Assembly: GCF_022878925.1 (NCBI RefSeq)
Contig: NZ_CP084628.1
Location: 682,001 to 746,000 of the forward strand
Source of the DNA: Caballeronia sp. TF1N1
GTDB taxonomy: Bacteria > Pseudomonadota > Gammaproteobacteria > Burkholderiales > Burkholderiaceae
Direction of reading: 5' to 3'
Length of the DNA stretch: 64,000 bases
The position numbers and the translations under genes are program-made. Shown here one piece after another: positions 1 to 46,964 of the stretch. The notes below the pieces were generated by a model. It did not search any database and was not told where the DNA came from. It worked only from the letters and a program-made list of their open reading frames with translations. The stretch's first letter is position 1. Each line of letters opens with the position of its first letter.

Positions 1-134
<134 letters not shown>

Positions 135-824
135 TTGTTCGCGATGCCGCTCGATAGCGCCGATCTCCAGGCCATCACGCTGACGCTCGAACTGGCGTCG
201 CTGGCGACGGCGCTTCTGCTCGTCATCGGCACGCCTGTCGCGTGGTGGCTATCGCGCACGCGCTCGCGGGCGAAGGGTGTCGTCGGCGCGGTGGTGGCGT
301 TGCCGCTCGTGCTGCCGCCTACCGTCATCGGCTTTTATCTGCTCGTGCTGATGGGGCCGAACGGCTACGTCGGCAAGCTCACGCAGGCGTCGGGCATCGG
401 CCTCTTGCCCTTCACGTTCGCGGGGCTCGTAATCGGCTCGGTCATCTATTCGATGCCGTTCGTCGTGCAGCCACTGCAGAACGCGTTTGAAGCCATCGGC
501 AGCCGTCCGCTCGAAGCCGCCGCGACCTTGCGCGCGGGACCGTGGGACACGTTCTTCACTGTCGTGTTGCCGCTTGCGCGGCCGGGCATCGTCACGGCGA
601 CGATCCTCGGTTTTGCGCACACGGTCGGCGAATTCGGCGTCGTGCTGATGATAGGCGGCAATATTCCCGGGCGCACGCGCGTGGTCTCCGTGCAGATCTT
701 CGATCACGTCGAAGCGCTCGAATACGCGCAGGCGCACTGGCTCGCGGGCGGCATGGTGCTGTTCTCGTTCATCGTGCTGTTGCTGCTCTATTCGAGCCGT
801 CGATCGGCGGCGGTGCATGCCTGA
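135..824 (+). CDS. modB: ModB, molybdate ABC transporter permease
   Basis: Inner-membrane permease of the molybdate importer; 229 aa, the usual ModB length. About five hydrophobic segments are visible, and the cytoplasmic EAA loop that docks on the ATPase is recognisable around [15 protein letters not shown]. The TTG at 135 directly abuts the modA stop; an in-frame ATG at 144 is the alternative start. The end overlaps modC by 8 bases, which suggests translational coupling. Expression is presumably governed from a promoter upstream of modA outside the window, so no Mo-box can be checked for this operon here. Confidence 0.95.
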
Positions 825-1929
825 AATCTCATCGACCGGTCAAGCCATCGAGGCGCGCTTTCTCGTCGAACAAGGCCGCTTCACGCTCGATGTCGATCTG
901 CGCTTGCCGGGACGCGGCGTGACCGCGCTCTTCGGCCATTCGGGTTCCGGCAAGACCACGCTGCTGCGCTGTCTCGCGGGACTCGCACGGCCGCGCGCGG
1001 GAAGGCTCGTCGTCAATGGCGACGTGTGGCTCGATACCGACCGCAACGTTTTTCTGCCGACGCACAAGCGTCCGCTCGGCTACGTTTTTCAGGAAGCCAG
1101 TCTTTTCGCGCACTTGAGCGTGCGCAAGAATCTTCGCTATGGGCTCGATCGCGTGGCGGCAAGCGAGCGACGCGTCGACCTGGAACAGGCGGCGGAACTG
1201 CTTGGCATCGGGCATCTGCTGGAGCGCGATCCAGGCGGATTGTCGGGCGGCGAACGCCAGCGCGTGGGCATTGCGCGGGCGCTGTTGACGAGTCCGCGTC
1301 TCTTGCTTCTCGACGAACCGCTCGCCGCGCTCGATCAGAAACGCAAGCTCGAAATCCTGCCGTATCTCGAACGTCTGCACGACGAGCTCGATATCCCCGT
1401 GCTGTACGTGACCCACGCGCCCGAGGAAGTCGCGCGCCTCGCGGATCACCTCGTTCTGCTCGAAGCCGGCCGCGCGCTGGCGAGCGGCGCAATTGCCGAT
1501 ACGCTCGCGCGGCTCGATCTGCCGCTCGCGCTCGCCGACGATGCATCGGTGGTGCTGGAAGGCATCGTCGCCGATCACGATGCGCGTTATGGTTTGCTGT
1601 CGCTCGCGCTGCCGGGCGGGCGCGCCTCGCTCACCGTCGTGCATGCGCCAGTCGAACGAGGCCGCGCGATGCGTGTCGCCGTGAAAGCGCGCGACGTAAG
1701 CCTGATCGCCGGCAATGAACCGCACACGTCGAGCAGCGTTCTCAATCTGCTGCCCGCAGTCGTGTCCGACATCGCCGACGATGCCGACCCCGCGCAAGTC
1801 GTCGTGCGCCTCGACGTGGACGGCTCGCCGCTCCTCGCGCGCATCACGCGTTATTCGCTGGACCGGCTAGGGATTGTCGCGGGCGTGCGGGTCTGGGCGC
1901 AGGTAAAGGCCGTCTCGCTGCTCGCCTGA
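817..1929 (+). CDS. modC: ModC, molybdate ABC transporter ATP-binding protein
   Basis: Cytoplasmic ATPase of the molybdate importer, 370 aa. Walker [10 protein letters not shown] lies at residues 40-48, followed by the Q-loop, the signature LSGGERQR and Walker [13 protein letters not shown]. The C-terminal ~80 residues form a TOBE (molybdate/tungstate-binding) domain, which distinguishes ModC from other importer ATPases. The start overlaps modB by 8 bases. The 3' end converges with and overlaps nudK by 79 bases, so the two transcripts are mutually antisense at their ends. Confidence 0.95.
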
Positions 1930-35464: not shown

Positions 35465-38400
35465 ATGCCATTGCGGTCCGGTGTCGATGAAACCACGTTT
35501 CGTCGCATTCTCTTGCGAAATATCGCGCTGCCGTTGGGGACGGGTATCGTCACCGCGGTCGCGTTCGTCGCTCTCGTGTTGTATCTGCTCTCAGGCATCG
35601 ACTGGGTCGAGCACTCGGAACGCGTGATCGGCAATACGCAGGAAATCGGGCGGCTCGTCGGCGAGAAGGAAAGCGCGGTACGCGGCTATCTGCTCACCGG
35701 CGACGAGAGCTTCCTCGCGCCTTACGAGACCGCCAAACCCAAGCTCACCGCCGATATCGATACGCTCGCCGCGCTCGTCTCGGACAACACGCCGCAAGTG
35801 GACCGCATGATCCGCATCCGCGCGTTGCAGACACAATGGGACAAGGTCGCCGATGCCGTGATCGCCGAGCGTCGCGCCAACGGCAATGCGCTCGCGCAGA
35901 TGCGTGCCGGAGGCGGTGCGGCGGAACGCGCCGAGACGGTGCGCGAGCTGGACGCGTTTCTCAACATCGAGCAGACGCTGCGGATTCAGCGCGTGGAGTC
36001 GGCGAAGGAACTGACGACCATCACCGTCATCGTGTTTCTCGTGCTGAGCCTGTCGCTTTCAGTGATTCTGGCGGTCTTCGGCCGCCGCGAACTCTTGCAG
36101 CTTTCGAACGCGTATGGCCTGGCACTCAGCGAACACGAGAAGCAGACGCGCGCGTTGCAGGAGCAGGCGTGGCTGCGCGAGGGGCAGACGCTGCTCGCGG
36201 CGCAGGTGATCGGCAGGCAGTCGCTCGACCAGTTGTGCCAGACGGTGCTCGACTTTCTGGCCGACTACCTCAAGGTATCGATAGGCGCGTTCTACGTCGT
36301 CGATGTCGACGGCGCGCTCCGGCGCACCGCGAGCTTCGGCTTCGATCCGGACAGCGAGACGTCGCCGCAGACGCTCGCGGGCGTAAAGAGTCTCGTCGGG
36401 CAGGCCGTGCATTCGAAGCGCCTGACGAACGTGGACGAAGTGCCGGCCGGCTATTGGAAGGTCACCTCTTCGCTCGGCTCGGCCACGCCGACGAGCCTCG
36501 TCGTCGTCCCGATCGAAAACGAGGGCGAGGCAAACGGCGCCATCGAACTCGGCGCGATGCACGCGCTCACGGAACGCGAGCGCCAGTTCATGTTGTCGGT
36601 GGCGGGGAATATCGGCGACTTCGTGGAGGCGGCGCAGTATCGCGAGCGCTTGCAGCAAGTGCTCGAAGAGACGCAGCAGTTGAACGAAGAGTTGCAGACG
36701 CAACAGGAAGAACTGCGCACGACCAACGAGGAACTGGAGCAACAGACCAACGCGCTGTCGCAGGCGCAGGTGTATCTCGCGAACCAGAAGGCCGAGCTCG
36801 AACAGACCAACGATCAACTCGCGGAACAGGCGCGCGTGCTCGACGAACGCAACGCGGCGCTGAACTCGGCGCAGGAAGTGCTGGAGCAGCGCGCCGAGGC
36901 CTTGCAGCGCGCAAGCCGCTACAAGTCCGAGTTCCTGGCGAACATGTCGCACGAGTTGCGCACGCCGCTCAATAGCTCGCTGATTCTCGCGAGACTGCTC
37001 TCGGAGAACAAGCACGGCAATCTCACGCAGGATCAGATCAAGTACGCGCAGACGATCTATTCGGCGGGCAACGATCTGCTCAATCTGATCAACGACATTC
37101 TCGACTTGTCCAAGGTGGAAGCGGGCAAGCTCGATCTGCACATCGAGCATGTGCCCGTGCAGCGCATCGTGGATACGCTTTCGCGCACCTTCGAGCCGCT
37201 CGCGCGCCAGAAGAAGCTGAAGCTCGAACTGCGCAACGACATCGAGCAATATCCGACGCTCACGACCGACTTCCGCCGGCTCGAGCAGATACTCAAGAAC
37301 CTGCTCGCCAACGCGGTGAAGTTCACCGACTCGGGCACGGTCTCGCTCACGCTGAAGAACGCGGGCAAGGACGCGGTGCAGTTCGTCGTGACGGATACGG
37401 GCATCGGCATTGCGCCGGATCAGCAGGAAGCGATTTTCGAAGCGTTCCAGCAAGCCGATGGCACCACGAGCCGTCACTACGGCGGCACGGGTCTGGGCTT
37501 GTCGATCTCGCGCAGTCTCGCGCATCTGCTCGGCGGGTCGATTGCGTTACAGAGCACGCCGGGTATGGGCAGCACGTTTACGCTCACGATGCCGGTCATC
37601 TATGACGCCCTCACGCCGCCCGTGCAAAACGCGCTCGAACTCGTGGCGCCCGTGCCTGCACCCGCGCCCGTTCCGGCGGAGACGCCCAGTGCGCCACTCG
37701 ATGACGTGGCCGCGTTGGTCACACCGACGCCCGTGATCGACGACGACCGGCTCGACGCCGCAGCCGCCGGCCGGCGCCTCGTGCTCGTCATCGAAGACGA
37801 AGCGAGCTTCGCCCAAGTGCTGCTCGATCTGGCCCACGAGCTGGGTTATCGCTGCATCGTGAGCGGCACGGCGGGCGAAGCGCTGCGGCTGGCGCAAGAA
37901 CGTTCGCCGAGCGCGATTCTGCTCGATATCGGCTTGCCGGATCGCTCGGGGCTCGTCGTGCTGCAAGAGTTGAAGGCGAACCCGAAGACGCGGCATATTC
38001 CCGTGCATGTCGTGTCGGCGTCGGACAGAAGCGAGGCCGCGCTGCACCTCGGCGCGATCGGCCACGCGGTCAAGCCGACCACGCGCGAACAACTCATGGG
38101 CATCTTCCAGCGGCTCGCCGACAAGAGCAGTCAGAAGATCAAGCGCGTGCTGCTGGTCGAGGACGATGCGCGGCAGCGGCAAAGCATCGTCGAGCTCATC
38201 AGCGATCAGGACGTGGAAATCACGCCTGTCGAGTTCGGCAAGGACGCGCTGGAGTTGCTGAAGACGACCATCTTCGACTGCATGATCATCGACCTGAAGC
38301 TGCCCGACATGCAAGGTGGCGATCTGCTGCGGCAGATGGCGTCGACGGATGCCTTGTCGTTTCCGCCGGTGATCGTCTACACGGGCCGCAATCTGACTCA

Positions 38401-38950
38401 CGACGAAGAAGCGGAACTCATGCGTTATTCGCAGTCGATCATCATCAAGGGTGCGCGTTCGCCGGAACGTCTGCTCGATGAAGTCACGCTCTTCCTGCAC
38501 AAGGTCGAATCCGACCTGTCGGCGGATCGCCAGGCGATGCTGCACGTCTCGCGTTCGCGCGACCGCGTGCTCGACGGACGCCGCGTGCTGCTGGTGGACG
38601 ACGACATCCGCAACATCTTTTCGTTATCGAGCGCGCTGGAGCATCAGGGTTTGAAAGTGGCGATCGGCCGCAATGGTTTCGAGGCCATCGAGGCGCTCGA
38701 CCGGCACGCGGACATCGACGTCGTACTGATGGACGTGATGATGCCCGGCATGGATGGACTGGAAGCGACGCGACGCATCCGCGAAGATGCGCGCTTCAAG
38801 AAGCTCCCGATCATCGCGATCACCGCGAAGGCGATGAAGGACGATCAGGAGCAATGCCTCGCCGCGGGCGCGAGCGATTATCTGGCGAAGCCGATCGATG
38901 TGGATCGGCTGTATTCGCTATTGCGGGTGTGGATGCCGCGGCGAGTCTGA
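35465..38950 (+). CDS. Hybrid sensor histidine kinase with CHASE3, GAF and three receiver domains
   Basis: 1161 aa from ATG 35465 (GGAG 6 bases upstream). Order: TM1 (about 20-43), CHASE3-type extracellular sensor (about 45-185, with [18 protein letters not shown]), TM2 (about 187-207), GAF (about 235-390), a Gln/Glu-rich coiled coil (395-485), HisKA with His496 ([14 protein letters not shown]), HATPase ([25 protein letters not shown]), then three receivers with acceptor Asp821, Asp943 and Asp1090. No output domain or HPt is present, so phosphate must pass to separate partners. This matches large beta-proteobacterial stress/biofilm-type hybrid kinases; stimulus unknown. A lone receiver gene exists at 59.7 kb but pairing is unproven. 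Confidence 0.92.
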
Positions 38951-38956
38951 GCGGCT

Positions 38957-40756
38957 TTAGATGTTGAGCGCGCGCTTGTTCACCGCAAGCGCCGCTTCCC
39001 GCATCACCTCCGACAGCGACGGATGCGGGTGCGAGATCATGCCGATGTCTTCCGACGCCGCCTTGAACTCCATCGCCACCACGGCTTCGGCAATCAGATC
39101 CGACGCGTTTGCCGAGACAATATGCACGCCGAGAATCTCGTCGGTTTTCGCATCGGCGATCACCTTGATGAAGCCGTCCGTTTCACCAATGCCCATCGCG
39201 CGGCCGTTGGCCATCATCGGGAACTGGCCGGCCTTGAACTCGCGGCCCTCGGCCTTCAGCGCCTGCTCGGTCTGACCGACCCATGCAATCTCCGGATGCG
39301 TGTAGATCACCCAAGGAATGAAGTTGTAATCGATGTGCGGCTTCTGACCGTTGATGATCTCCGCCACCAGCACGCCTTCGTCCTCGGCCTTGTGCGCAAG
39401 CATGGGGCCGCGCACGACGTCGCCGATGGCGTAGACGTTCGGCACCTTGGTCGCGCAATGGCCATCGACGGGGATGAAGCCGCGCTCATCGGCGGCGAGC
39501 CCGATCGAGTCGAGACCAAGATTGGCCGTATTCGGCACGCGGCCGATGGAGACGATCAGACGGTCCGCATCCAGCGTCGCCGCGTTGCCGTCCTTGTCCT
39601 TGTAAGACACGGAGACGCCCGCGTCGCTCGTCTTCACGCTGTCGATCTTCACGCCGAGGTGGATCGTCAATCCCTGTTTCTTGAATTGCTTGGCGGCTTC
39701 CTTTTGCAGCGCGGTGTCGGTCGAGCCTAGGAAGTCCGGCAGCGCTTCGAGTATGGTCACTTCCGCGCCGAGCCGCCGCCACACCGAACCGAGTTCCAGA
39801 CCGATCACGCCTGCGCCGATCACGGCGAGCTTTTTCGGCACGGAATCGAAGGCGAGCGCGCCTTCGTTGTCGGAGACGATGCGGTTATCCACGGGCACGT
39901 TCGGCAAATGACGCGCCTTCGAACCCGTCGCGATGATCACGTATTTCGCCGTATGGCTGCCGTCCTTGTCGCCGCCGCTCACTTCAATAGTGAAGTTGCC
40001 GCCAGCCTTGCCCGCGAGCTTGCCGTGGCCCTTGAGCCAGGTGATCTTGTTCTTGCGGAAAAGGAACTCGACGCCGCCCGTGATCTTCTCGACGATCGCT
40101 TCCTTGCGGCCGATCAGCTTCTTCAGATCCAAACTCACGTTCTCGACGTTCACGCCGTGATCGCCCAGATGCAGTCGCGCATTCTCGAATTCTTCCGACG
40201 ATGCGAGCAGCGCCTTCGACGGAATGCAGCCGACGTTCAAGCACGTGCCGCCGAGCTTCGGCTTGCCGGCCGGGTTGATCCACTCTTCGACGCACGCGAC
40301 CGAATAGCCGAGTTGCGCGGCGCGGATCGCGGCGATATAGCCGCCGGGACCGGAGCCGATCACGATGACGTCGTAATCGGCTTTCTCGCTGGATTCGGCT
40401 TGAGGCGCGGGCGCGGGCGCCGCGGCAGCGGCCGGTTGTTCGGCGGCGGGCTTTTCAGGCGCGGCGGCCGGCTTCTCGGCAGCCGGAGCCGGCGCGGGCG
40501 CTGCCGCGGCTTTTCCTTCCGTATCGATGGCGGCGAGGATTTCATCCGCGTGGACGATATCGCCTTCCTTCTTGAGAAGCTCGCCTAGCACACCGGACGA
40601 CGGCGCGGGAACTTCCAGCACGACTTTGTCGGTTTCCAGTTCGACGAGGATTTCGTCTTGCGTCACCGGGTCGCCCGCTTTCTTTTTCCAGGGCAACAGC
40701 GTTGCCTCGGTGACGGACTCGGAAAGCTGCGGAACCTTGACTTCAACCCTTGCCAT
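38957..40756 (-). CDS. lpdA: Dihydrolipoyl dehydrogenase (E3) with N-terminal OGDH-type lipoyl domain
   Basis: 599 aa. Residues 1-75 are a lipoyl domain (lipoyl Lys44 in [12 protein letters not shown]) followed by an Ala/Pro/Glu-rich linker (75-125). The E3 body has FAD motif [12 protein letters not shown], redox disulfide [13 protein letters not shown], the NAD-binding [19 protein letters not shown] and the C-terminal HPHPSLSE with the catalytic His. The lipoyl part ([19 protein letters not shown]) resembles the 2-oxoglutarate dehydrogenase E2 rather than the pyruvate dehydrogenase-type lipoyl domain usual for Burkholderiales E3. It stands alone, without sucAB or pdh genes. ATG 40756 has AAGGAGAATC. 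It could reoxidise AcoC, whose operon lacks an E3. Confidence 0.92.
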
Positions 40757-40824
40757 TCAGATTCTCCTTGTGAGCATGCTTGTGCGATGGAAACCGTGCG
40801 GCGGCGAAGGGCGGGGCGCTTGCC

Positions 40825-40857
40825 TCCGTTTGCATCTGTTTGCATCCGTTTTGTCCG
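40825..40857. repeat. Short 10-bp-period repeat upstream of lpdA
   Basis: TCCGTTTGCA, TCTGTTTGCA and TCCGTTTTGT follow each other at 10-base spacing in the divergent region between lpdA and the DUF2325 gene. It may be a phased regulatory site. Confidence 0.4.
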
Positions 40858-40930
40858 TCCCGGCCGCGCAGAAGCCACAGGATACGCCGTGTGCGGCACG
40901 CTCGCCGCACTGCCGCTTGCCGGACGGCCC

Positions 40931-40956
40931 TCGCTATATTCGGTGGTATATTGCGA
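40931..40956. promoter_or_regulatory. Mo-box (ModE operator) upstream of the DUF2325 gene
   Basis: TCGCTATAT, seven bases, then TATATTGCGA. The left half is identical to the ModE consensus half-site (A)TCGCTATAT(A) and the right half differs little from TATATAACGA, with the standard spacing. It lies 49 bases before the DUF2325 ATG and 175 bases from lpdA. The consensus is from memory of E. coli and Rhodobacter Mo-boxes. Confidence 0.7.
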
Positions 40957-41004
40957 AAACAGACGCGGACCGACCATTCCCGCCCGATCGAACATGAGGT
41001 GATC

Positions 41005-42336
41005 ATGCAGGCCCCTCCGTTTCCACTTGCCCGCCCGACTCGCATCGACATGCACGCGCACACGTCCGACGCATGTTGCGAGCCGCAGCCGCAACGAGTC
41101 GCGGCCGTGGCTGCCGACGCGCGCGGCGCGAGGAAGCGCGTGCGGCTCTCCGAGCTGGATTCGCATCTGCATTGCTCGATCATCGGTACTTGTCTCTCCA
41201 CCAACGAGTTGCGCAAGCTGGTGCCGAAGTTCACTAACCTGGACCGTCATCACGCGAGCGATCTCGACATTCACCACGCGGCGGTCGAACTGGCGATTGC
41301 GGGCGGCGCGGGCGCGAAGGCGCTCAACAAGGCGCTCGACGAACGTTATTCAGGCGCGCTCCGCCGTTTCGATGCCGCGCGCAGCAGCGACGCACTGCTC
41401 GACCTTTGGTCCGATGCGCTCAAGTCCGGCGACATCCCGCCCGCCTACTGGGCGCTGATGACGCACCCGCACGCGAATATCGAAGTGAGGCAGTCGGCGT
41501 TTGGCGAGCTGCACATGCTCTCGCATCTCGTGGGCGCGGCGAATCGCGCGGATATCCGGCGTCTCGTGGCGCTCGAAAAAGAGAACGCGGAGCTGCGCGA
41601 CAAGATCGAACGGCAGCAGGCGCGTCTGCTGGAAGTGAGCGGCGAGCGCGACGCGTCGCTGCGCCAGTTGAGCGAGTTGGCGGCGCAAGGCGAACGCAAG
41701 CCGGAAACGGACCCGAGCGAACTCGAGGAAGAAGTGCGACGCCTGCGCGAAAAGGCCGAGGAAGGCGAGCGCCGTCTCGCGCTGCATACGAGCCGTCGCG
41801 AAGCCGCGGAACGGCGCGCGCAGCAGGAAAAGGACGAAGCCGAGACGCTGCGCGCGCGGCTCGCCGAGGCACAAGCGCTATTGAAAGTCGTGCAGGCGGA
41901 ATGCGCGGCGCTGGAACGCGCGACGCTCGATAACGCCGAAGCGTCCGGCACGCGTCAGCGCGCCTTTGACTGGGTGAACGGCAAACGCATCGTCTATGTG
42001 GGCGGCAGACCGAACTCGAACGCCGTGTTGAAGTCGCTCGTCGAAACGGCAGGCGGCGCGCTCACCGTGCACGATGGCGGTATCGAGGATCGCAAGGGAT
42101 TGCTCGCCGCCGCGCTGCCGAACGCGGACGTGGTGCTGTTTCCGGTGGACTGCATCGACCATGATTCGATGAACACGTTGAAGCGCGTCTGCGACCGTCA
42201 CGGCGTGGACTACGCGCCGTTGCGCACGGCGAGCGTGGCGAGTTTCGTGGAATTCGTCGCGCGGCTGGATGTCGACGAGCGCGTGACCCGCACGAGCGCG
42301 CCGCCGCGTTCGGCGTTCTGCCTGCGCCACGGTTAG
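41005..42336 (+). CDS. DUF2325 coiled-coil protein of the Mo-box cluster
   Basis: 443 aa from ATG 41005 (GAGGTGATC ribosome site). The N-terminal third holds a conserved-looking LDSHLHCSIIGTCLSTNELRK motif with His and Cys that could bind metal. Residues about 185-315 are a long charged coiled coil (EKENAELRDKIERQQARL...). The C-terminal ~90 residues are DUF2325 (GKRIVYVGGRPNSNAVLKSL ... FPVDCIDHDSMNTLKRVCDRH). Function unknown. The upstream Mo-box and the convergent modE/nifQ genes (stop codons overlap by 4 bases) suggest a role tied to molybdenum, which is inference. Confidence 0.82.
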   Translation: MQAPPFPLARPTRIDMHAHTSDACCEPQPQRVAAVAADARGARKRVRLSELDSHLHCSIIGTCLSTNELRKLVPKFTNLDRHHASDLDIHHAAVELAIAGGAGAKALNKALDERYSGALRRFDAARSSDALLDLWSDALKSGDIPPAYWALMTHPHANIEVRQSAFGELHMLSHLVGAANRADIRRLVALEKENAELRDKIERQQARLLEVSGERDASLRQLSELAAQGERKPETDPSELEEEVRRLREKAEEGERRLALHTSRREAAERRAQQEKDEAETLRARLAEAQALLKVVQAECAALERATLDNAEASGTRQRAFDWVNGKRIVYVGGRPNSNAVLKSLVETAGGALTVHDGGIEDRKGLLAAALPNADVVLFPVDCIDHDSMNTLKRVCDRHGVDYAPLRTASVASFVEFVARLDVDERVTRTSAPPRSAFCLRHG

Positions 42337-42722
42337 GACTTGAGGAGCTTCGTCAGTGCGCCGATGTGTCCGGCGCACGCGGCGTGCGCTTCGGTTTCGA
42401 TATCGCGGTAAAGCTGCACGATGCGTTCGCCCACGGGCGTCAACACGCAGCCGCCGCCGCTCTGGCCGCCTTGCTCCGAGACGGTCGCGGGCGACTTCAG
42501 CGAGCGGTTCAATTCGTCGATGAGCAGCCACGCGCGCCGATACGACATGCCGAGACTACGCGCCGCCGCCGAGATCGAACCGTGTTCGCGCACGGCTTCG
42601 AGAAGCACCACTTTGCCCGGCCCGAGCGCGATTGCTTCACCTTTGCGGATGCGCATGCGAAAGCGCACTTCGACGGCTTCTTGGGCCGTCGCCGCAGGTT
42701 TCGTTTTGAGGGATGTGGCCAT
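42333..42722 (-). CDS. modE: ModE-type winged-helix regulator lacking the molybdate-binding domain
   Basis: 129 aa. The whole protein corresponds to the N-terminal DNA-binding half of Mod[50 protein letters not shown], then GGQSGGGCVLTPVGERIV. The C-terminal tandem TOBE (Mop) domains that bind molybdate in E. coli ModE are absent and no second part follows. It probably binds the Mo-boxes at 40931 and 43807. Without TOBE, molybdate sensing must come from a partner or from control of its amount. It follows nifQ by 35 bases and is the last gene of that operon. Confidence 0.88.
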   Translation of the reverse strand: MATSLKTKPAATAQEAVEVRFRMRIRKGEAIALGPGKVVLLEAVREHGSISAAARSLGMSYRRAWLLIDELNRSLKSPATVSEQGGQSGGGCVLTPVGERIVQLYRDIETEAHAACAGHIGALTKLLKS

Positions 42723-42757
42723 GCCCGAGAGAATACACGAACGAGACCCTCCGAACG

Positions 42758-43306
42758 CTACTGGCGAAACGGATAGCAGAAGCGGTAATCCTCGCAACCC
42801 GGACAGCCCGGCGCGCAGGTCGGCGCAACGCCGTTTGCGCTCGCCACCTCGTACGCGAGGAACTTCTTCCAGCGCATTTCGTCGACGTTGCGCGCGGCGA
42901 GCGCGGGGTAATGGCGTTCGAGCATGGCGCTGACATCGGCGCGGCCATCGAGTCCGAGATCGCGCCATAAATGGTCGGGACGCAGGCACGCCGTGGCGAT
43001 GATCATCGCGAGACAATGCGCGTCGTCGGGAGAATGTGTCAGCGTCACGTCATGGCGCATCAGAAGCGCATGAAGATCGTGTACGAAGACGCGGTGCGGC
43101 GTCCACGGCGGCGTATGATCGCCGTCGATCGTCTGCGTGAAATGGCGCGTGGTCAGGGCATCGAGTTCCGGCTTGTTAAGACCGAGCAGCAATACATCGC
43201 CGGCTTCCATGCGCGCGCCGATCAACCGCGCGAACAACACCGTATCGGGCACGGCTGCATGGGCCGCGCGAGCGAGAAGGGCGCGCGCCGCCGCGTTCAC
43301 GTTCAT
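42758..43306 (-). CDS. nifQ: NifQ-family protein (molybdenum donor)
   Basis: 182 aa. Recognised by LGLNKPELDALTTRHF, a central DDAHCLAMIIATACLRPDHLWRDLGL and the C-terminal MRWKKFLAYEVASANG... CAPGCPGCEDYRFC. The four Cys (164, 168, 171, 177) have spacing x3-x2-x5, one residue shorter in the first gap than the CX4CX2CX5C I recall for NifQ. NifQ carries a Mo-Fe-S cluster and supplies Mo for FeMo-cofactor in nitrogen fixers. No nif genes occur here. ATG 43306 overlaps the previous stop (ATGA), showing translational coupling to the molybdopterin-fold gene. Confidence 0.85.
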   Translation of the reverse strand: MNVNAAARALLARAAHAAVPDTVLFARLIGARMEAGDVLLLGLNKPELDALTTRHFTQTIDGDHTPPWTPHRVFVHDLHALLMRHDVTLTHSPDDAHCLAMIIATACLRPDHLWRDLGLDGRADVSAMLERHYPALAARNVDEMRWKKFLAYEVASANGVAPTCAPGCPGCEDYRFCYPFRQ

Positions 43307-43788
43307 GGCGAGTGGCCGCTGCCGAGCACGTGGGCATCCACGCGTACCAGCCGCTTCAGGTGGCGCGGCGCGTGCACCGTATCCGCGCCGGACACCAGCA
43401 CCGGCAGGCCATCTTCGACGCCGAGTTCGCGGTCCGCACACGCATACGCCACGATCACTTGCTCGCCCACGGGCGTGTTGAAAAGCTCATGCCAGGAAAA
43501 CGTCACTGCATAGCCATCGTGCGCATGCGCGAGAAACACGGTGCGCTTGAAATCCGTGCTGCCGGGACGGCGCACGCCAGCGGCGTCGAGCAGCACGCGC
43601 AACTGCACGCCCTGATATCGTTCCACTGGTCGAATATAACGTCCGGTCGAAAAGCAGACGAGATCGAAGGGAGCGATGCTCGCGCTCGCAAACTCGCGCA
43701 AGGCGGCGACATCGAGCACGAGCGGACGTTCGACCGCGCCGCCAATCTGAACGACAGGTGAAAGGCTGAGCGAATGCGCGTGATTCAT
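43303..43788 (-). CDS. Small molybdopterin-dependent oxidoreductase domain protein (sulfite-oxidase fold)
   Basis: 161 aa. It resembles the oxidoreductase-molybdopterin-binding domain: an initial QIGGAVERPLVLDVAALREF, a FDLVCFSTGRYIRPVERYQGV segment with Cys45 at the place of the Mo-ligand Cys in this fold, LRVLLDAAGV, then DGYAVTFSWHELF and DGLPVLVSGAD. It is shorter than complete sulfite-oxidase-type enzymes and has no signal peptide, so it is a minimal cytoplasmic version; a catalytic role is uncertain. It heads an operon with nifQ and modE, and a Mo-box-like site lies 19-44 bases upstream. The ribosome site before ATG 43788 is weak. Confidence 0.75.
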   Translation of the reverse strand: MNHAHSLSLSPVVQIGGAVERPLVLDVAALREFASASIAPFDLVCFSTGRYIRPVERYQGVQLRVLLDAAGVRRPGSTDFKRTVFLAHAHDGYAVTFSWHELFNTPVGEQVIVAYACADRELGVEDGLPVLVSGADTVHAPRHLKRLVRVDAHVLGSGHSP

Positions 43789-43806
43789 GGCGATGACCGG
43801 GCAGAT

Positions 43807-43832
43807 GCGATGTATCGCTGAATATATTACGG
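43807..43832. promoter_or_regulatory. Second Mo-box-like site, upstream of the molybdopterin-nifQ-modE operon
   Basis: CGATGTAT (43808-43815), seven bases, then TATATTACG (43823-43831): the half-site order and spacing of a Mo-box with two mismatches in the left half. It lies 19 bases before the first gene of the operon, a position suited to repression by ModE. Confidence 0.5.
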
Positions 43833-43923
43833 CAGATTGTACGATGCCATGCCTTTCGCGGCATGATGATCATGGATGCGGCATTATTCACAACTATCGT
43901 TTCCGGCCAACGGGAGAGCCTTC

Positions 43924-44841
43924 ATGAGTCGTCGTCCTGCGTGGATCGCGATTTTGGCGTTCGTCACCGCCGCATGCACTTCGGGCGGAGGCTCGGTCAG
44001 CGCGCCGCAGACGGTCCAGCTTTCCGGCTCGCCGAACGGCGTCGCGGTGCGCGCGTCGGATGGCGCGGTGTTCGTCACCGACGACAAGACCAACAGCATC
44101 GTGATGACCTCGAGTCTCGACGCTGCATCGCCCGACTTTTCGCTCTACGCGCGCATTCCCGCGCAGGAAGGCGAGCGCGGCGCGCTCAGTCAGATTGCGT
44201 TTGCGCCGAACGGACATCTGCTCGTCGAGCGCTTCGGCTTCGGCAAGAACAGCGCGGTGTTCGACATCGCCGCGAGCGGACAAGTGGCACTTGCCGCCGA
44301 TGCAAACCCGTCGCGACGCCGCCTCGGGCTCGTCGTGCTGGACAGCGGCACGTTTCTGTCGAGCTGGTTCGGCAAGGAAGGCGATGCGCCGTCGATGGGC
44401 GGCGTTAGCCTGATCACGCGTGGCGCGACGCCGGGCAGCGTGACCGAGCGCGATCTCGTCATCGGCCTGAAGAAGCCGGTGGGCCTCGCGGTCGTCGGCG
44501 ACACGCTGTTCATCAGCGATCAGGCGGCGAACCGCATCTTCAAGGTCGATCTGCAGGACGCGCGCACGGCGGGCGGCCCGGTGCAGGCCACCAATGTGTT
44601 CGCCACCGTCGATGCGCCCGATCTCATGGCCGCATCGCCCGATGGCACGCTCTACACGAAATGCGGCGCGCACGCGTTGTGCAGTGTGTCGAAGCGCGGT
44701 ACGGCGGCGGTCATCGCCAGCGACTTCGACGCGCCTCGCGGCGTGGCCGTCGATGTCGCGCGCAAGCGGCTGATCGCGGTGGATCGCGCGGGTGCGTCGT
44801 CGGGCAAGACGAGCGCGCTGCGCGTGTTGCCGATCAGATGA
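43924..44841 (+). CDS. Lipoprotein with NHL/SMP-30-like beta-propeller
   Basis: 305 aa. ATG 43924 has a GGGAGAG ribosome site and begins a lipoprotein signal (AFVTAACTSGG, lipobox TAAC). Repeated motifs such as SPNGVAVRASDGAVFVTDDKTN, QIAFAPNGHLLVERF, KKPVGLAVVGDTLFISDQAANRIFKVDL and APRGVAVDVARKRLIAVD are blades of a six-bladed NHL/SMP-30-type propeller. Enzymatic or binding role unknown. It is divergent from the molybdopterin operon, and the promoter region is short and shared, so the Mo-box at 43807 might also affect it. Confidence 0.78.
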   Translation: MSRRPAWIAILAFVTAACTSGGGSVSAPQTVQLSGSPNGVAVRASDGAVFVTDDKTNSIVMTSSLDAASPDFSLYARIPAQEGERGALSQIAFAPNGHLLVERFGFGKNSAVFDIAASGQVALAADANPSRRRLGLVVLDSGTFLSSWFGKEGDAPSMGGVSLITRGATPGSVTERDLVIGLKKPVGLAVVGDTLFISDQAANRIFKVDLQDARTAGGPVQATNVFATVDAPDLMAASPDGTLYTKCGAHALCSVSKRGTAAVIASDFDAPRGVAVDVARKRLIAVDRAGASSGKTSALRVLPIR

Positions 44842-44860
44842 GCGAGCCCAAGGTCGACCC

Positions 44861-44894
44861 AAAAAAAGAAGGCGACGCATTCGCCGCCTTCTTT
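44861..44894 (-). terminator. Terminator of the sugar ABC operon
   Basis: GAAGGCG (44868-44874) pairs with CGCCTTC (44885-44891); seven A at 44861-44867 give a U-tract on the minus strand after the binding-protein gene. On the plus strand TTTC follows, so it may work weakly for the propeller gene too. Confidence 0.8.
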
Positions 44895-44916
44895 CGCGCC
44901 TACGTCACGTCGAACC

Positions 44917-45867
44917 TCAACGCGGCGACGACCAGCCCTTGTAATTCGCCACGTTTTCGCGCGTGACGAGCGTCGACGGCATGAGGATCATCGTGCTGCT
45001 CGGCTTCTTGCCGTTCATCAAGTCGTAACCGACGCTCACCGCCTGCTGCGCCATCGACCACGGGTCCTGACTCGCGGAAGCCTGAATCTGCGTATCGGTC
45101 TTGAGCGCGTTTTCGATATCCGGCGCACCATCCACCGACGTGATCACGATATTGTTGCGACGCAGTTGCTTCGCCGCGAGATCGCTGCCGATGGCTTGCG
45201 GATCGTTGATCGCGAAGAGGCCGTCGAGCTTCGGAAACCGCGTGAGATAACCTTGCATCGCGTTCATGCCGCCTTCGCGCGAACCCTTCGCGTCCTGGTC
45301 GTCGGATAGCACCTTGATGCCCGGATTCTTCGCCAGTTCCGCCTTGCAACCCTTCACGCGATCCGTCACGGCCGAAACCTGCGGCCCGTTCTCGATCACC
45401 ACGTTGCCCTTGCCGTTGAGCTTCTTCGCGAGGAAATCGCACGCGAGTTCGCCCGCCTGCACGTTGTTGGTCTGCACGGTGGCGTCCGTTCCGGCAGCGG
45501 CCACGTCGACCGCGACCACCACGATGCCCGCCGCCTTCGCCTTCTTCACGGCGGGTTCGATCGCCTTCGGATCGACCGCGTTGAGCAGGATCATGTCGAC
45601 GTGCGCGGAGATGAAGTTGTCGATCTGCGTGAACTGCTTGTTCATGTCGTAATCCGACGATACCGCCGTGACCTTGACGCTCGGATTGATCTGCTTGGCC
45701 TTGGCTTCCGCGCCGCGCGAGATGGTCACGAAGTACGGATTGCCGAGCGAGCCGACCGTGATGCCGACCGACTTCAGTTGCTTGTCGGCGGCCTGCGCGG
45801 CGGGCAGCGCCGCGCAAAAACCGACTGCGAGTGCGACGCTGGCGAAAAGCTTGTTGTGTTTGCGCAT
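44917..45867 (-). CDS. Sugar ABC transporter periplasmic binding protein (RbsB-like)
   Basis: 316 aa from ATG 45867 with GGAGACAAC. A signal peptide (SVALAVGFCAALPAAQA) precedes a periplasmic-binding-protein type I fold: VGSLGNPYFVTISRGAEAKAK, NAVDPKAIEPAVKKAKAAGIVVVAVD, GLFAINDPQAIGS and ITSVDGAPD. It would capture a pentose or related sugar and hand it to the permease encoded upstream. It is the last gene of the operon ROK-ATPase-permease-binding protein. The exact sugar is not readable; no catabolic enzymes adjoin. Confidence 0.9.
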   Translation of the reverse strand: MRKHNKLFASVALAVGFCAALPAAQAADKQLKSVGITVGSLGNPYFVTISRGAEAKAKQINPSVKVTAVSSDYDMNKQFTQIDNFISAHVDMILLNAVDPKAIEPAVKKAKAAGIVVVAVDVAAAGTDATVQTNNVQAGELACDFLAKKLNGKGNVVIENGPQVSAVTDRVKGCKAELAKNPGIKVLSDDQDAKGSREGGMNAMQGYLTRFPKLDGLFAINDPQAIGSDLAAKQLRRNNIVITSVDGAPDIENALKTDTQIQASASQDPWSMAQQAVSVGYDLMNGKKPSSTMILMPSTLVTRENVANYKGWSSPR

Positions 45868-45947
45868 GTTGTTGTCTCCAGTGGGTCCATTCGAGTTGGA
45901 CGGGCGCAGGCGGACCTGCATGCGCCCGGTGTTTTCAAAGCGAAACT

Positions 45948-46964
45948 TCAGGTTCGGGCCGAACCGCGCTGGCGGTAACGGTCGAGCGCCACCGCGCCGA
46001 TGATGACGAGACCCTTGATGATGTACTGCCAGATATCCGACACGCCGAGCAGCACGAGTCCATTCGACAGCACGGCGATGATCAGCGCCCCGACCAGCGT
46101 CCCGACGATCGACCCCACGCCGCCCACGAAACTCGTGCCGCCGAGAATGACCGCGGCGATGGCATCGAGTTCATACGATTGGCCGAGTTGCAGACCGTTC
46201 GCCGCATAGAGCCGCGCCGCCGACATCACCGCGCCGAGACCGGCGAGCAGTCCCGACATCGCGTAGACGAAAAGCTGGATGCCCCACACCTTGATGCCCG
46301 AGAGCCGCGCCGCCTCCGGATTGCCGCCGACCGAATAGATGCGCAGGCCGAGCACCGTGCGGCGCAGAATGAACCACGAAATGGCGACGACCGCGAGCGC
46401 GATGATCACGAGCCACGGCACGCCGAGCACCGTGTCGTTGCCGATGAACGCGAACGACAGCTGCGGGTTGAAGATGGTCGTATCGTTACCGATGAGCCGC
46501 GCAATGCCGCGCACCGCCGTGAGCGAACCGAGCGTCACGATGAACGGCGGCAGTTTGAGCAGCGAGATCAGCAGCCCGTTGACCACGCCGAAGCCGAGAC
46601 CGACGGCAAGCGCGGCCGGAATGCCGAGCCAGCCGAGATGCGGCAGGTTCGACGCGAGCAGCGCGGTGACAGCCGCCGCGGACAGGATCGAGCCGACCGA
46701 CAAGTCGATGCCGCCCGTGAGAATGACGAAGGTCATGCCCGCCGCGAGCACGATGTTGATCGACGCCTGCTGCGTGACGATCGACATGTTCTGCAGGCTG
46801 AAGAAGCCATCGGTGACGATGCCGAAGCCGATGCACAGCAGAATCAGCACCGGCAACATGCCGGCGGTGCGCATCAGGACCTGCATGCGCTCGCGATGTT
46901 CGATGCGCGTCTGCCGTTCCGCCGCGCCTGGCCCGACGTTGTCCTGCTTGGTGGTGTTAGCCAT
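45948..46964 (-). CDS. Sugar ABC transporter permease (RbsC/XylH type)
   Basis: 338 aa from ATG 46964 (GGAGAGAGAC). About eight to ten membrane segments and the family motif GMTFVILTGGIDLSVGSILS, with EAA-type loop VYSVGGNPEAARLSGIKV and LGGTSFVGGVGSIVGTLVGA. It forms the membrane channel for the sugar bound by the neighbouring binding protein. Spacing to the flanking genes is 19 and 80 bases, consistent with one operon. Confidence 0.92.
   Translation of the reverse strand: MANTTKQDNVGPGAAERQTRIEHRERMQVLMRTAGMLPVLILLCIGFGIVTDGFFSLQNMSIVTQQASINIVLAAGMTFVILTGGIDLSVGSILSAAAVTALLASNLPHLGWLGIPAALAVGLGFGVVNGLLISLLKLPPFIVTLGSLTAVRGIARLIGNDTTIFNPQLSFAFIGNDTVLGVPWLVIIALAVVAISWFILRRTVLGLRIYSVGGNPEAARLSGIKVWGIQLFVYAMSGLLAGLGAVMSAARLYAANGLQLGQSYELDAIAAVILGGTSFVGGVGSIVGTLVGALIIAVLSNGLVLLGVSDIWQYIIKGLVIIGAVALDRYRQRGSART

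Follow-up and report, generated by a model that had tools for sequence, protein, structure and literature searches.

A candidate molybdenum-scarcity regulon with NifQ, a TOBE-less ModE and a long DUF2325 protein in Caballeronia sp. TF1N1

Gene content and genome setting

The window analysed here, a 64,000-nucleotide stretch of a 7.07 Mb genome, carries four genes in two units, a Mo-box-like palindrome ahead of each unit and, at its left edge, genes of a mod operon:

1-131, plus strand: 3' end of modA, whose start lies outside the window (the complete gene scores 263 bits against TIGR01256)
135-824, plus strand: modB (TIGR02141, 242.4 bits)
817-1929, plus strand: likely modC, an ATPase gene after modB, named from sequence and gene order
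40931-40956, no strand: Mo-box-like palindrome upstream of DUF2325 (48 bases from the gene start)
41005-42336, plus strand: long DUF2325 protein, 443 aa (PF10087, 54 bits, residues 328-418)
42333-42722, minus strand: short ModE, 129 aa (TIGR00637, 80.3 bits; HTH_1, 32.9 bits)
42758-43306, minus strand: stand-alone NifQ, 182 aa (PF04891, 112.5 bits)
43303-43788, minus strand: MPT, a molybdopterin-fold protein, 161 aa (PF00174, 36.9 bits)
43807-43832, no strand: Mo-box-like palindrome upstream of MPT (18 bases from the gene start)

The four genes of the preliminary description are all present, with the 4-base overlap of MPT and NifQ (43303-43306) that it reported. Its two units are likewise present and, given that the 3' ends of the ModE and DUF2325 genes overlap by 4 bases, they are convergent; the wording "divergent-facing" does not stand. 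An Rfam search of 38000-46000 gave no match at gathering thresholds.

The short ModE matches TIGR00637 with an E-value of 8.6e-23, its 80.3 bits being below the family cut-off of 98.5 bits. As proposed earlier from sequence, it is without TOBE domains, neither a TOBE nor a Mop domain being matched in profile searches, and it consists of the DNA-binding domain alone; E. coli ModE and PDB 2ijl, itself a stand-alone ModE DNA-binding domain without TOBE in a chain of 135 aa, match it over the DNA-binding part. The genome also encodes, at C2, a full-length ModE that has two TOBE domains. MPT is a small protein of the sulfite-oxidase fold (PF00174 cut-off 24 bits) whose model (pLDDT 83.0) matches SoxCD (2xts) at a Foldseek E-value of 2.4e-7; the enzymes matched by fold are about twice as large. 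PF00174 is the sole match of MPT at E 0.001, with no match to a C-terminal dimerisation domain. A cysteine aligned with the molybdenum ligand occurs in 22 of 23 MPT sequences and, in a weak profile alignment, stands in register with the molybdenum ligand of plant sulfite oxidase. The PruR pterin-binding proteins are likewise small sulfite-oxidase-fold proteins of similar size, but an excerpt of PMC13259868 describes them as secreted and as having Trp in place of this cysteine; MPT keeps the cysteine and, judged by eye only, has no apparent signal-like stretch at the N-terminus.

Mo-box-like sites and ModE control

Molybdate-dependent repression of modABC by ModE, acting at the element named the Mo-box, is the mechanism known from E. 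coli, and the present genome resembles that system in having ModE relatives and a Mo-box-like palindrome at modA. Scored against the 16 positions of TCGNTATAT-N8-ATATANCGA, a motif written for this analysis from the window site and the Mo-box, the palindrome at 40931-40956 agrees at 15 and is the sole place in the 64 kb window scoring at least 13. The palindrome at 43807-43832 agrees at 12 of 16 and, since ten places in the window score at least 12, is by itself not above chance; its position directly before MPT and the sites ahead of MPT in relatives give it more weight. Across the whole genome, CGNTATATN8ATATNNCG matches exactly only at 40931-40956 and with one mismatch at seven further places, including 43807-43832 and the modA promoter, where the site lies about 16 bases before the modA start, outside the window (contig C3, 681264-681287).

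The comparison with relatives, in which upstream distances were counted from the start of the protein domain and not from the start codon, bears out the claim that a Mo-box-like site precedes each unit. Sites scoring at least 12 lie within 300 bases upstream of MPT in 18 of 20 ModE-bearing Burkholderiaceae loci, against a mean of 0.2 and a maximum of 2 for 40 permuted motifs. Such a site also precedes the long DUF2325 gene in 27 of 29 ModE-bearing loci from Burkholderiaceae and in 71 of 80 mostly alphaproteobacterial ones, but not in some other lineages, the 80 being the best of 570 relatives and biased to the Methylorubrum clade because a Methylorubrum protein came first in the query, with one Paraburkholderia MAG (L243) and one entry titled Mycobacterium (L191) among them. 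The spacer is 8 in all 71 sites from this best 80 of 570, a single permuted motif out of 40 reached 23 of the 80, and the DUF2325 sites occur with or without NifQ at the locus. The molybdenum link suspected for DUF2325 is supported by this comparison. The modA gene of modAB-nifQ-modE loci has an upstream site in all seven cases, and a site scoring at least 12 was found in none of 15 molbindin-nifQ operons without short ModE (300 bases scanned). No site of that score lies upstream of the long DUF2325 genes of L149, L150, L152, L156 and L170, and Mo-box control of every long DUF2325 is therefore ruled out.

As judged from sequence, a Mo-box ahead of the gene that is conserved in relatives, the mark of a ModE regulon, is present here, and the cluster is very probably part of such a regulon. 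In an excerpt of PMC7294313, the Rhodobacter capsulatus regulators MopA and MopB repress anfA with molybdate. The present case differs from these and from E. coli ModE in having a second, TOBE-less ModE and in its presumed targets, namely NifQ, MPT and DUF2325.

The long DUF2325 protein and its ModE neighbour

The DUF2325 assignment (54 bits against a PF10087 cut-off of 33.6) belongs to the end of a protein that an AlphaFold2 model (pLDDT 84.8) lays out as a helical domain, a long coiled coil and a C-terminal DUF2325 domain. Residues C57, C63, H90, H154, H170 and H174 are invariant in 31 DUF2325 sequences and could be metal ligands. Cj1384 of Campylobacter jejuni shares the DUF2325 domain, and a redox or metal role is suggested for it in the part of PMC9426514 that concerns it, but it has only 104 aa and lies beside katA in a peroxide-stress setting.

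In most Burkholderiaceae loci having both genes, and in 36 of 80 alphaproteobacterial-type loci (the best 80 of 570 relatives), DUF2325 adjoins the short ModE, and in L214, L219 and L221 the genes after it are a separate TOBE gene and one for a ModE DNA-binding domain; a further neighbour scan, of 148 of 152 picked proteins (those over 600 aa omitted), covered 46 loci, most of which have no ModE within 1.5 kb. Such adjacency, the missing TOBE domains and the invariant cysteines and histidines would suit a split molybdenum sensor, in which the TOBE-less ModE depends on DUF2325, on a separate TOBE protein, on NifQ or on MPT for its metal signal, and the role of the cluster is to sense molybdenum, not to deliver it. 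This alternative is nevertheless improbable, given that many DUF2325-ModE loci have no NifQ and that the full-length, two-TOBE ModE of the genome could sense alone. The narrower proposal that DUF2325 is a partner of ModE is somewhat less doubtful, though still tentative.

DUF2325 and short ModE occur without NifQ at nine loci (L084-L090, L092, L094), and for four of the nine NifQ was not found genome-wide either (G095, G110, G036, G038). The single joint molybdenum system envisaged at the outset consequently does not hold as a fixed unit: the parts are modular and occur apart, which rules out a fixed four-gene system, and the many DUF2325 loci without NifQ likewise rule out DUF2325 as a partner of NifQ only.

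NifQ and molybdenum handling outside nitrogen fixation

A search of the genome with PF00148 (NifDKEN) at E 0.001 returned zero matches. The ordinary nifQ of a nif cluster is thereby ruled out; the refuting case named earlier, a nif cluster elsewhere in this genome, did not occur, and the earlier separation of NifQ from nif is supported. Seven PF00142 matches were obtained (21-34 bits, 32-80 profile positions), but this profile is uninformative for NifH, since it matches in all 14 control genomes as well.

Among 150 Burkholderiaceae genomes, 38 stand-alone NifQ loci were found, 36 of them from genomes without NifDKEN. Molybdenum genes adjoin NifQ in 37 (molbindin, ModE, MPT or DUF2325 in 36, a ModA-like operon in L057), and in L062 a molybdenum gene next to nifQ is absent. 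Eight more stand-alone NifQ come from other Burkholderiales families, in genomes without PF00148; seven have the order modA-modB-ATPase-nifQ-modE and one is a NifQ-ModD fusion adjoining molbindin. In the order sample of 56 NifQ genomes, PF00148 was tested in 11, mainly low-scoring, and its status in five more (G000, G009, G011, G020, G393) comes from other searches. NifQ with molbindin or mod genes but without short ModE or DUF2325 also occurs. One genome, G151, has a nif-type NifQ and no PF00148 match. The nif genomes G311 and G325 each have a second NifQ-like match (102 and 89 bits) that lacks the C-terminal part.

The window protein belongs to PF04891 (cut-off 27 bits). C-x4-C-x2-C-x5-C is taken as the defining motif of NifQ, and nif-type proteins carry it, but the window protein does not: in the alignment its first cysteine is absent in 41 of 41 stand-alone NifQ and present in 37 of 37 nif-type sequences, counts from which L132 and L134, both wrong reading frames, were excluded. 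The window NifQ retains C-x2-C-x5-C, with another cysteine one residue after the place of the missing one, and the cysteine cluster is absent from the NifQ-like proteins of L309, L310 and L312. It shares PF04891, HLW, an NxxxxWKxF-type stretch and C-x2-C-x5-C with the diazotroph proteins of Azotobacter vinelandii and Klebsiella, and differs from them in lacking the first cluster cysteine and the KQLC cysteine and in its setting, amid Mo-homeostasis genes in a genome without NifDKEN. In diazotrophs NifQ is a molybdenum donor, and its loss is relieved by excess molybdate, according to portions of PMC11605450 and PMC6448029.

The overlap of MPT with NifQ, their adjacency in many loci and the ligand-aligned cysteine would fit MPT as a small molybdoenzyme that NifQ serves in dedicated maturation. 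That is quite unlikely, because 15 stand-alone NifQ loci have molbindin only, three have ModE, DUF2325 and molbindin with MPT absent within 3 kb, L086, L087, L089, L090 and L094 have MPT without NifQ, and MPT is of reduced size without a dimerisation-domain match. That NifQ is a relic of a lost nif cluster, drifting beside molybdenum genes, is very improbable: copies are broken in relatives (L077 in two frames, L091 a fragment), so that NifQ is dispensable in some, and its dN/dS is the highest of the four genes, but the median of 0.34 over 15 pairs (L077 excluded) is well below 1 and indicates purifying selection, the company of molybdenum genes recurs in differing arrangements, the nif genomes G055 and G112 have both NifQ types at separate loci, and in a tree that kept L134 and excluded L077 the stand-alone group is apart from nif-type NifQ (branch 1.16, support 99/97), with L046, counted as stand-alone, branching outside the main group.

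The explanation preferred overall, with a probability of about 0.6, is a molybdenum-scarcity regulon in which NifQ would be a nif-independent molybdenum carrier and DUF2325 a frequent member; the regulon reading draws on the conserved Mo-box-like sites, the modA-promoter site and the repeated company of NifQ with molybdenum genes. Molybdenum scarcity would switch the regulon on in this nitrogenase-free bacterium. ModE carrying molybdate, possibly the full-length protein, would repress the promoters until scarcity lifts repression, and modABC would then import molybdate. NifQ probably handles molybdenum outside nif, and may hold it on a Mo-Fe-S cluster at its three remaining cysteines, although a Mo-Fe-S donor as the means falls somewhat short of even odds. 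The recipient of molybdenum from NifQ would be the molybdenum-cofactor pathway or MPT in place of nitrogenase. DUF2325 would be co-regulated and act in Mo homeostasis, where it might bind metal as a partner of the TOBE-less ModE or serve it as a sensor. A wider and rather speculative reading joins these elements: NifQ might have been recruited outside nitrogen fixation to carry molybdenum in general, perhaps in two separate events (one for the molbindin/short-ModE group, one for the modAB-nifQ-modE group), its site remodelled to three cysteines or to none. Long DUF2325 would be a near-constant ModE-regulon member in the sampled Burkholderiaceae and alphaproteobacterial clades and would couple metal state to the TOBE-less ModE. 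Together they would form a molybdenum delivery or sensing branch absent from the literature searched.

NifQ is read as a nitrogen-fixation gene. Matches to NifQ of B. multivorans and Burkholderia sp. YI23 were among the homologs read as nitrogen-fixation potential in sugarcane Burkholderia (excerpt of PMC3937718), and isolates are on record whose set is limited to nifQ or nifJ plus some fix genes (passage in PMC13178297); the present analysis suggests that nifQ of such isolates may be a Mo-homeostasis gene instead. If NifQ does serve ordinary molybdoenzymes, this raises the question of how scarce molybdenum reaches the molybdenum cofactor. For DUF2325, a domain of unknown function, molybdenum scarcity is a growth condition in which to search for a phenotype. 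Of the eight nif clusters in the family sample, three (L039, L040, L044) also have a small DUF2325 gene shortly 3' of nifQ, as does L172.

The cluster and its closest relatives

By the window annotation and profile matches, 40931-43832 holds two units that face each other and converge:

40931-40956: Mo-box-like site on the promoter side of the DUF2325 gene
DUF2325 protein, 443 residues, a unit by itself
Small molybdopterin-fold protein (MPT, 161 residues), NifQ and a ModE lacking TOBE (short ModE), an operon-like row
43807-43832: Mo-box-like site on the MPT side

The DUF2325 and ModE genes overlap by four bases at their 3' ends, as do NifQ and MPT. We think, from sequence comparison, that the cluster belongs to a molybdenum-scarcity response, in which the acting ModE would be the short protein, the full-length ModE that the genome also carries, or both. 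The contig measures 1.2 Mb in an assembly of 7.07 Mb. In plasmid records, all six DUF2325 matches of 62-75% identity, each covering 99-100% of the query, come from Caballeronia; Burkholderia arboris is next at 58.7%. Caballeronia sp. Lep1P3 shares this gene order, its products being named DUF2325 protein, LysR family regulator, NifQ and molybdopterin-dependent oxidoreductase. The host is thus probably Caballeronia-like. Across genomes of this type, NifQ has a median dN/dS of 0.34 (6 genomes, 15 pairs); the medians for MPT, ModE and DUF2325 are 0.12, 0.20 and 0.19, respectively (7 genomes, 21 pairs). NifQ is split over two frames at L077 (genome G100), and at L091 (G139) NifQ and MPT survive only as fragments beside ModE and a partial DUF2325.

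Sulfite-oxidase-fold enzymes match the predicted MPT model with E values from 2.4e-7, as does PruR, which is of similar size. MPT retains a cysteine that a weak alignment places at the Mo-ligand position of plant sulfite oxidase; PruR has Trp there (PMC13259868). Elsewhere in the genome, L289:3943-5016 (contig C1) joins a ModE-like DNA-binding part (39 bits) to a PBP_like domain.

NifQ outside nif clusters

The preliminary description saw no nif genes in the window; across the genome, PF00148 (NifD, K, E and N) gives no match at E 0.001. Among 150 Burkholderiaceae genomes, 44 carry NifQ, at 46 loci. Eight loci score 144-177 bits, and the genomes that hold them are the same eight in which PF00148 exceeds the cut-off. 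Scores at the remaining 38 are 102-121 bits. Of these loci, 36 belong to genomes with no PF00148 match over the cut-off (G105 has one of 19 bits, below it), and two are in nif genomes (G055, G112), away from their nif-type NifQ. In the phylum sample (299 genomes, NifQ in 43), the genome of the window scores 112 bits and one of its genus 108; the other 41 reach at least 137 bits as best score, 40 of them with strong PF00148 and one, G151, with no match. The order sample (300 genomes) has NifQ in 56; a PF00148 check on 12 genomes, 11 of this sample (mainly low-scoring) plus G151, found it in three (G491, G678, G699) and not in nine. G151 (L147, L313) has a nif-type NifQ with all four cysteines and no PF00148 found in its 180-contig assembly; the genome is perhaps incomplete.

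At 36 of the 38 stand-alone loci, NifQ has at least one of TOBE protein, ModE, MPT and DUF2325 within 3 kb.

Arrangements beside stand-alone NifQ
Short ModE and DUF2325, with or without MPT and TOBE: 18 loci
TOBE protein alone: 15 loci
MPT alone: 2 loci
ModA-like gene, permease, nifQ, full ModE: L046

At L057 a ModA-like binding protein and two more ABC-type genes follow nifQ; L062 has none of the four within 3 kb, nor a ModA-like operon beside nifQ. Named records of Burkholderia pyrrocinia and B. multivorans show a TOBE protein, then NifQ. Of the eight PF00148-free order-sample genomes (G151 apart), seven have modA-modB-gap-nifQ-modE rows; the only gap gene scanned, that of L309, encodes an ABC ATPase. 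In the eighth, one frame combines a NifQ-like part with ModD and a double-Mop protein follows. In this frame, L312:5893-7320 (G658), the ModD part matches TIGR01334 at 239.7 bits and the NifQ-like part has no cysteine cluster; the double-Mop gene is directly 3'. Within nif clusters, small DUF2325 genes lie shortly 3' of nifQ at L039, L040, L044 and L172, and ABC-type genes and a full ModE lie downstream at L039-L041.

The putative metal site was compared by aligning 37 nif-type NifQ proteins with 41 stand-alone ones (the 38, Lep1P3, B. pyrrocinia and B. multivorans). The first cysteine of C-x4-C-x2-C-x5-C is present in 37/37 nif-type and 0/41 stand-alone proteins, and the upstream KQLC cysteine in 36/37 and 0/41; all 78 keep the final three cysteines and the histidine preceding LW. 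In five stand-alone proteins, among them that of the window, a cysteine stands one residue after the position of the missing first one. By eye, NifQ of L304-L308 keeps just the last three cysteines, and the NifQ-like proteins of L309, L310 and L312 have no cluster, the genes in the modAB-nifQ-modE rows of L309 (G571) and L310 (G449) stopping short of it. In the tree, stand-alone NifQ minus L046 forms one side of a branch of length 1.16 (support 99/97), with a misread row, L134, inside the group and a program warning of long branches.

NifQ may be a carrier, to judge by its family (PMC11605450, PMC6448029) and its molybdenum-gene company. The cysteine-free NifQ-like proteins show that a cysteine-bound cluster cannot serve every molybdenum-linked NifQ, which leaves room for a sensor reading. 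In the literature searched, with subscription journals mostly outside it, NifQ and DUF2325 were never found together, nor was stand-alone NifQ found as a molybdenum gene, which does not prove absence.

Mo-box-like sites

A 16-position palindromic motif (spacers 7-9, score at least 12) was sought in 300 bases upstream, with 40 permuted motifs as control. Sites precede the DUF2325 domain in 27 of 29 Burkholderiaceae loci with DUF2325 and ModE (permuted mean 0.5, highest 7), MPT in 18 of 20 (0.2, 2) and NifQ operons without short ModE in only three of 20 (L047, L054, L057; 0.1, 1). Mostly alphaproteobacterial DUF2325 loci have one in 71 of 80, always with spacer 8 (1.3, 23). Five long DUF2325 forms have no site. 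All seven modAB-nifQ-modE loci have a site of at least 13 before modA, as does L046 at its ModA-like gene.

Within the genome of the window, the sole exact match to CGNTATATN8ATATNNCG is the DUF2325 site. One-mismatch matches occur at seven places: modA, MPT, a porin (L284:3362-4732), the gap between a second PF00174 protein (329 residues; L286:3495-4481, contig C4) and an MFS gene, the region 5' of a LysR gene, and two further places, of which one is inside a gene. At up to two mismatches the strands give 60 and 54 matches against 35 and 42 for the reversed control, so this level is mostly noise. The porin (Pfam Porin_4 for L055 and L284, clustering for the rest) recurs beside L051, L053, L055, L069, L086 and L088, several with a Mo-box-like site. 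An orphan family near DUF2325 (L055, L060, L065, L066, L069, L076, L080, L086, L089, L094; no Pfam match for L060) has strong sites by the 5' end of several members.

DUF2325 and its neighbours

At the 80 mostly alphaproteobacterial loci, a ModE DNA-binding domain lies within 1.5 kb in 36, and ModE, TOBE or MPT in 40. Among 148 neighbouring proteins at 46 loci, mostly those lacking such genes, aldehyde dehydrogenase (11) is the most frequent family, followed by ModA-like SBP_bac_11 (8), SelR, ABC ATPase and Peripla_BP_2 (6 each) and DUF2478 (5). Methylorubrum extorquens CM4 has modCBA, alcohol dehydrogenase, Glp, a winged-helix protein and DUF2325 in a row; Aureimonas has modA close by and a winged-helix gene that overlaps DUF2325. 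No molybdenum gene was found near DUF2325 in Azospirillum brasilense or Shinella zoogloeoides; the Shinella gene has a 16/16 Mo-box-like site. The predicted DUF2325 model combines a helical and an alpha/beta domain with a long coiled coil, and C57, C63, H90, H154, H170 and H174, unchanged in 31/31 sequences, could bind metal. At L214, L219 and L221, DUF2325 is followed by two separate genes (single TOBE; ModE DNA-binding), resembling a ModE split in two.
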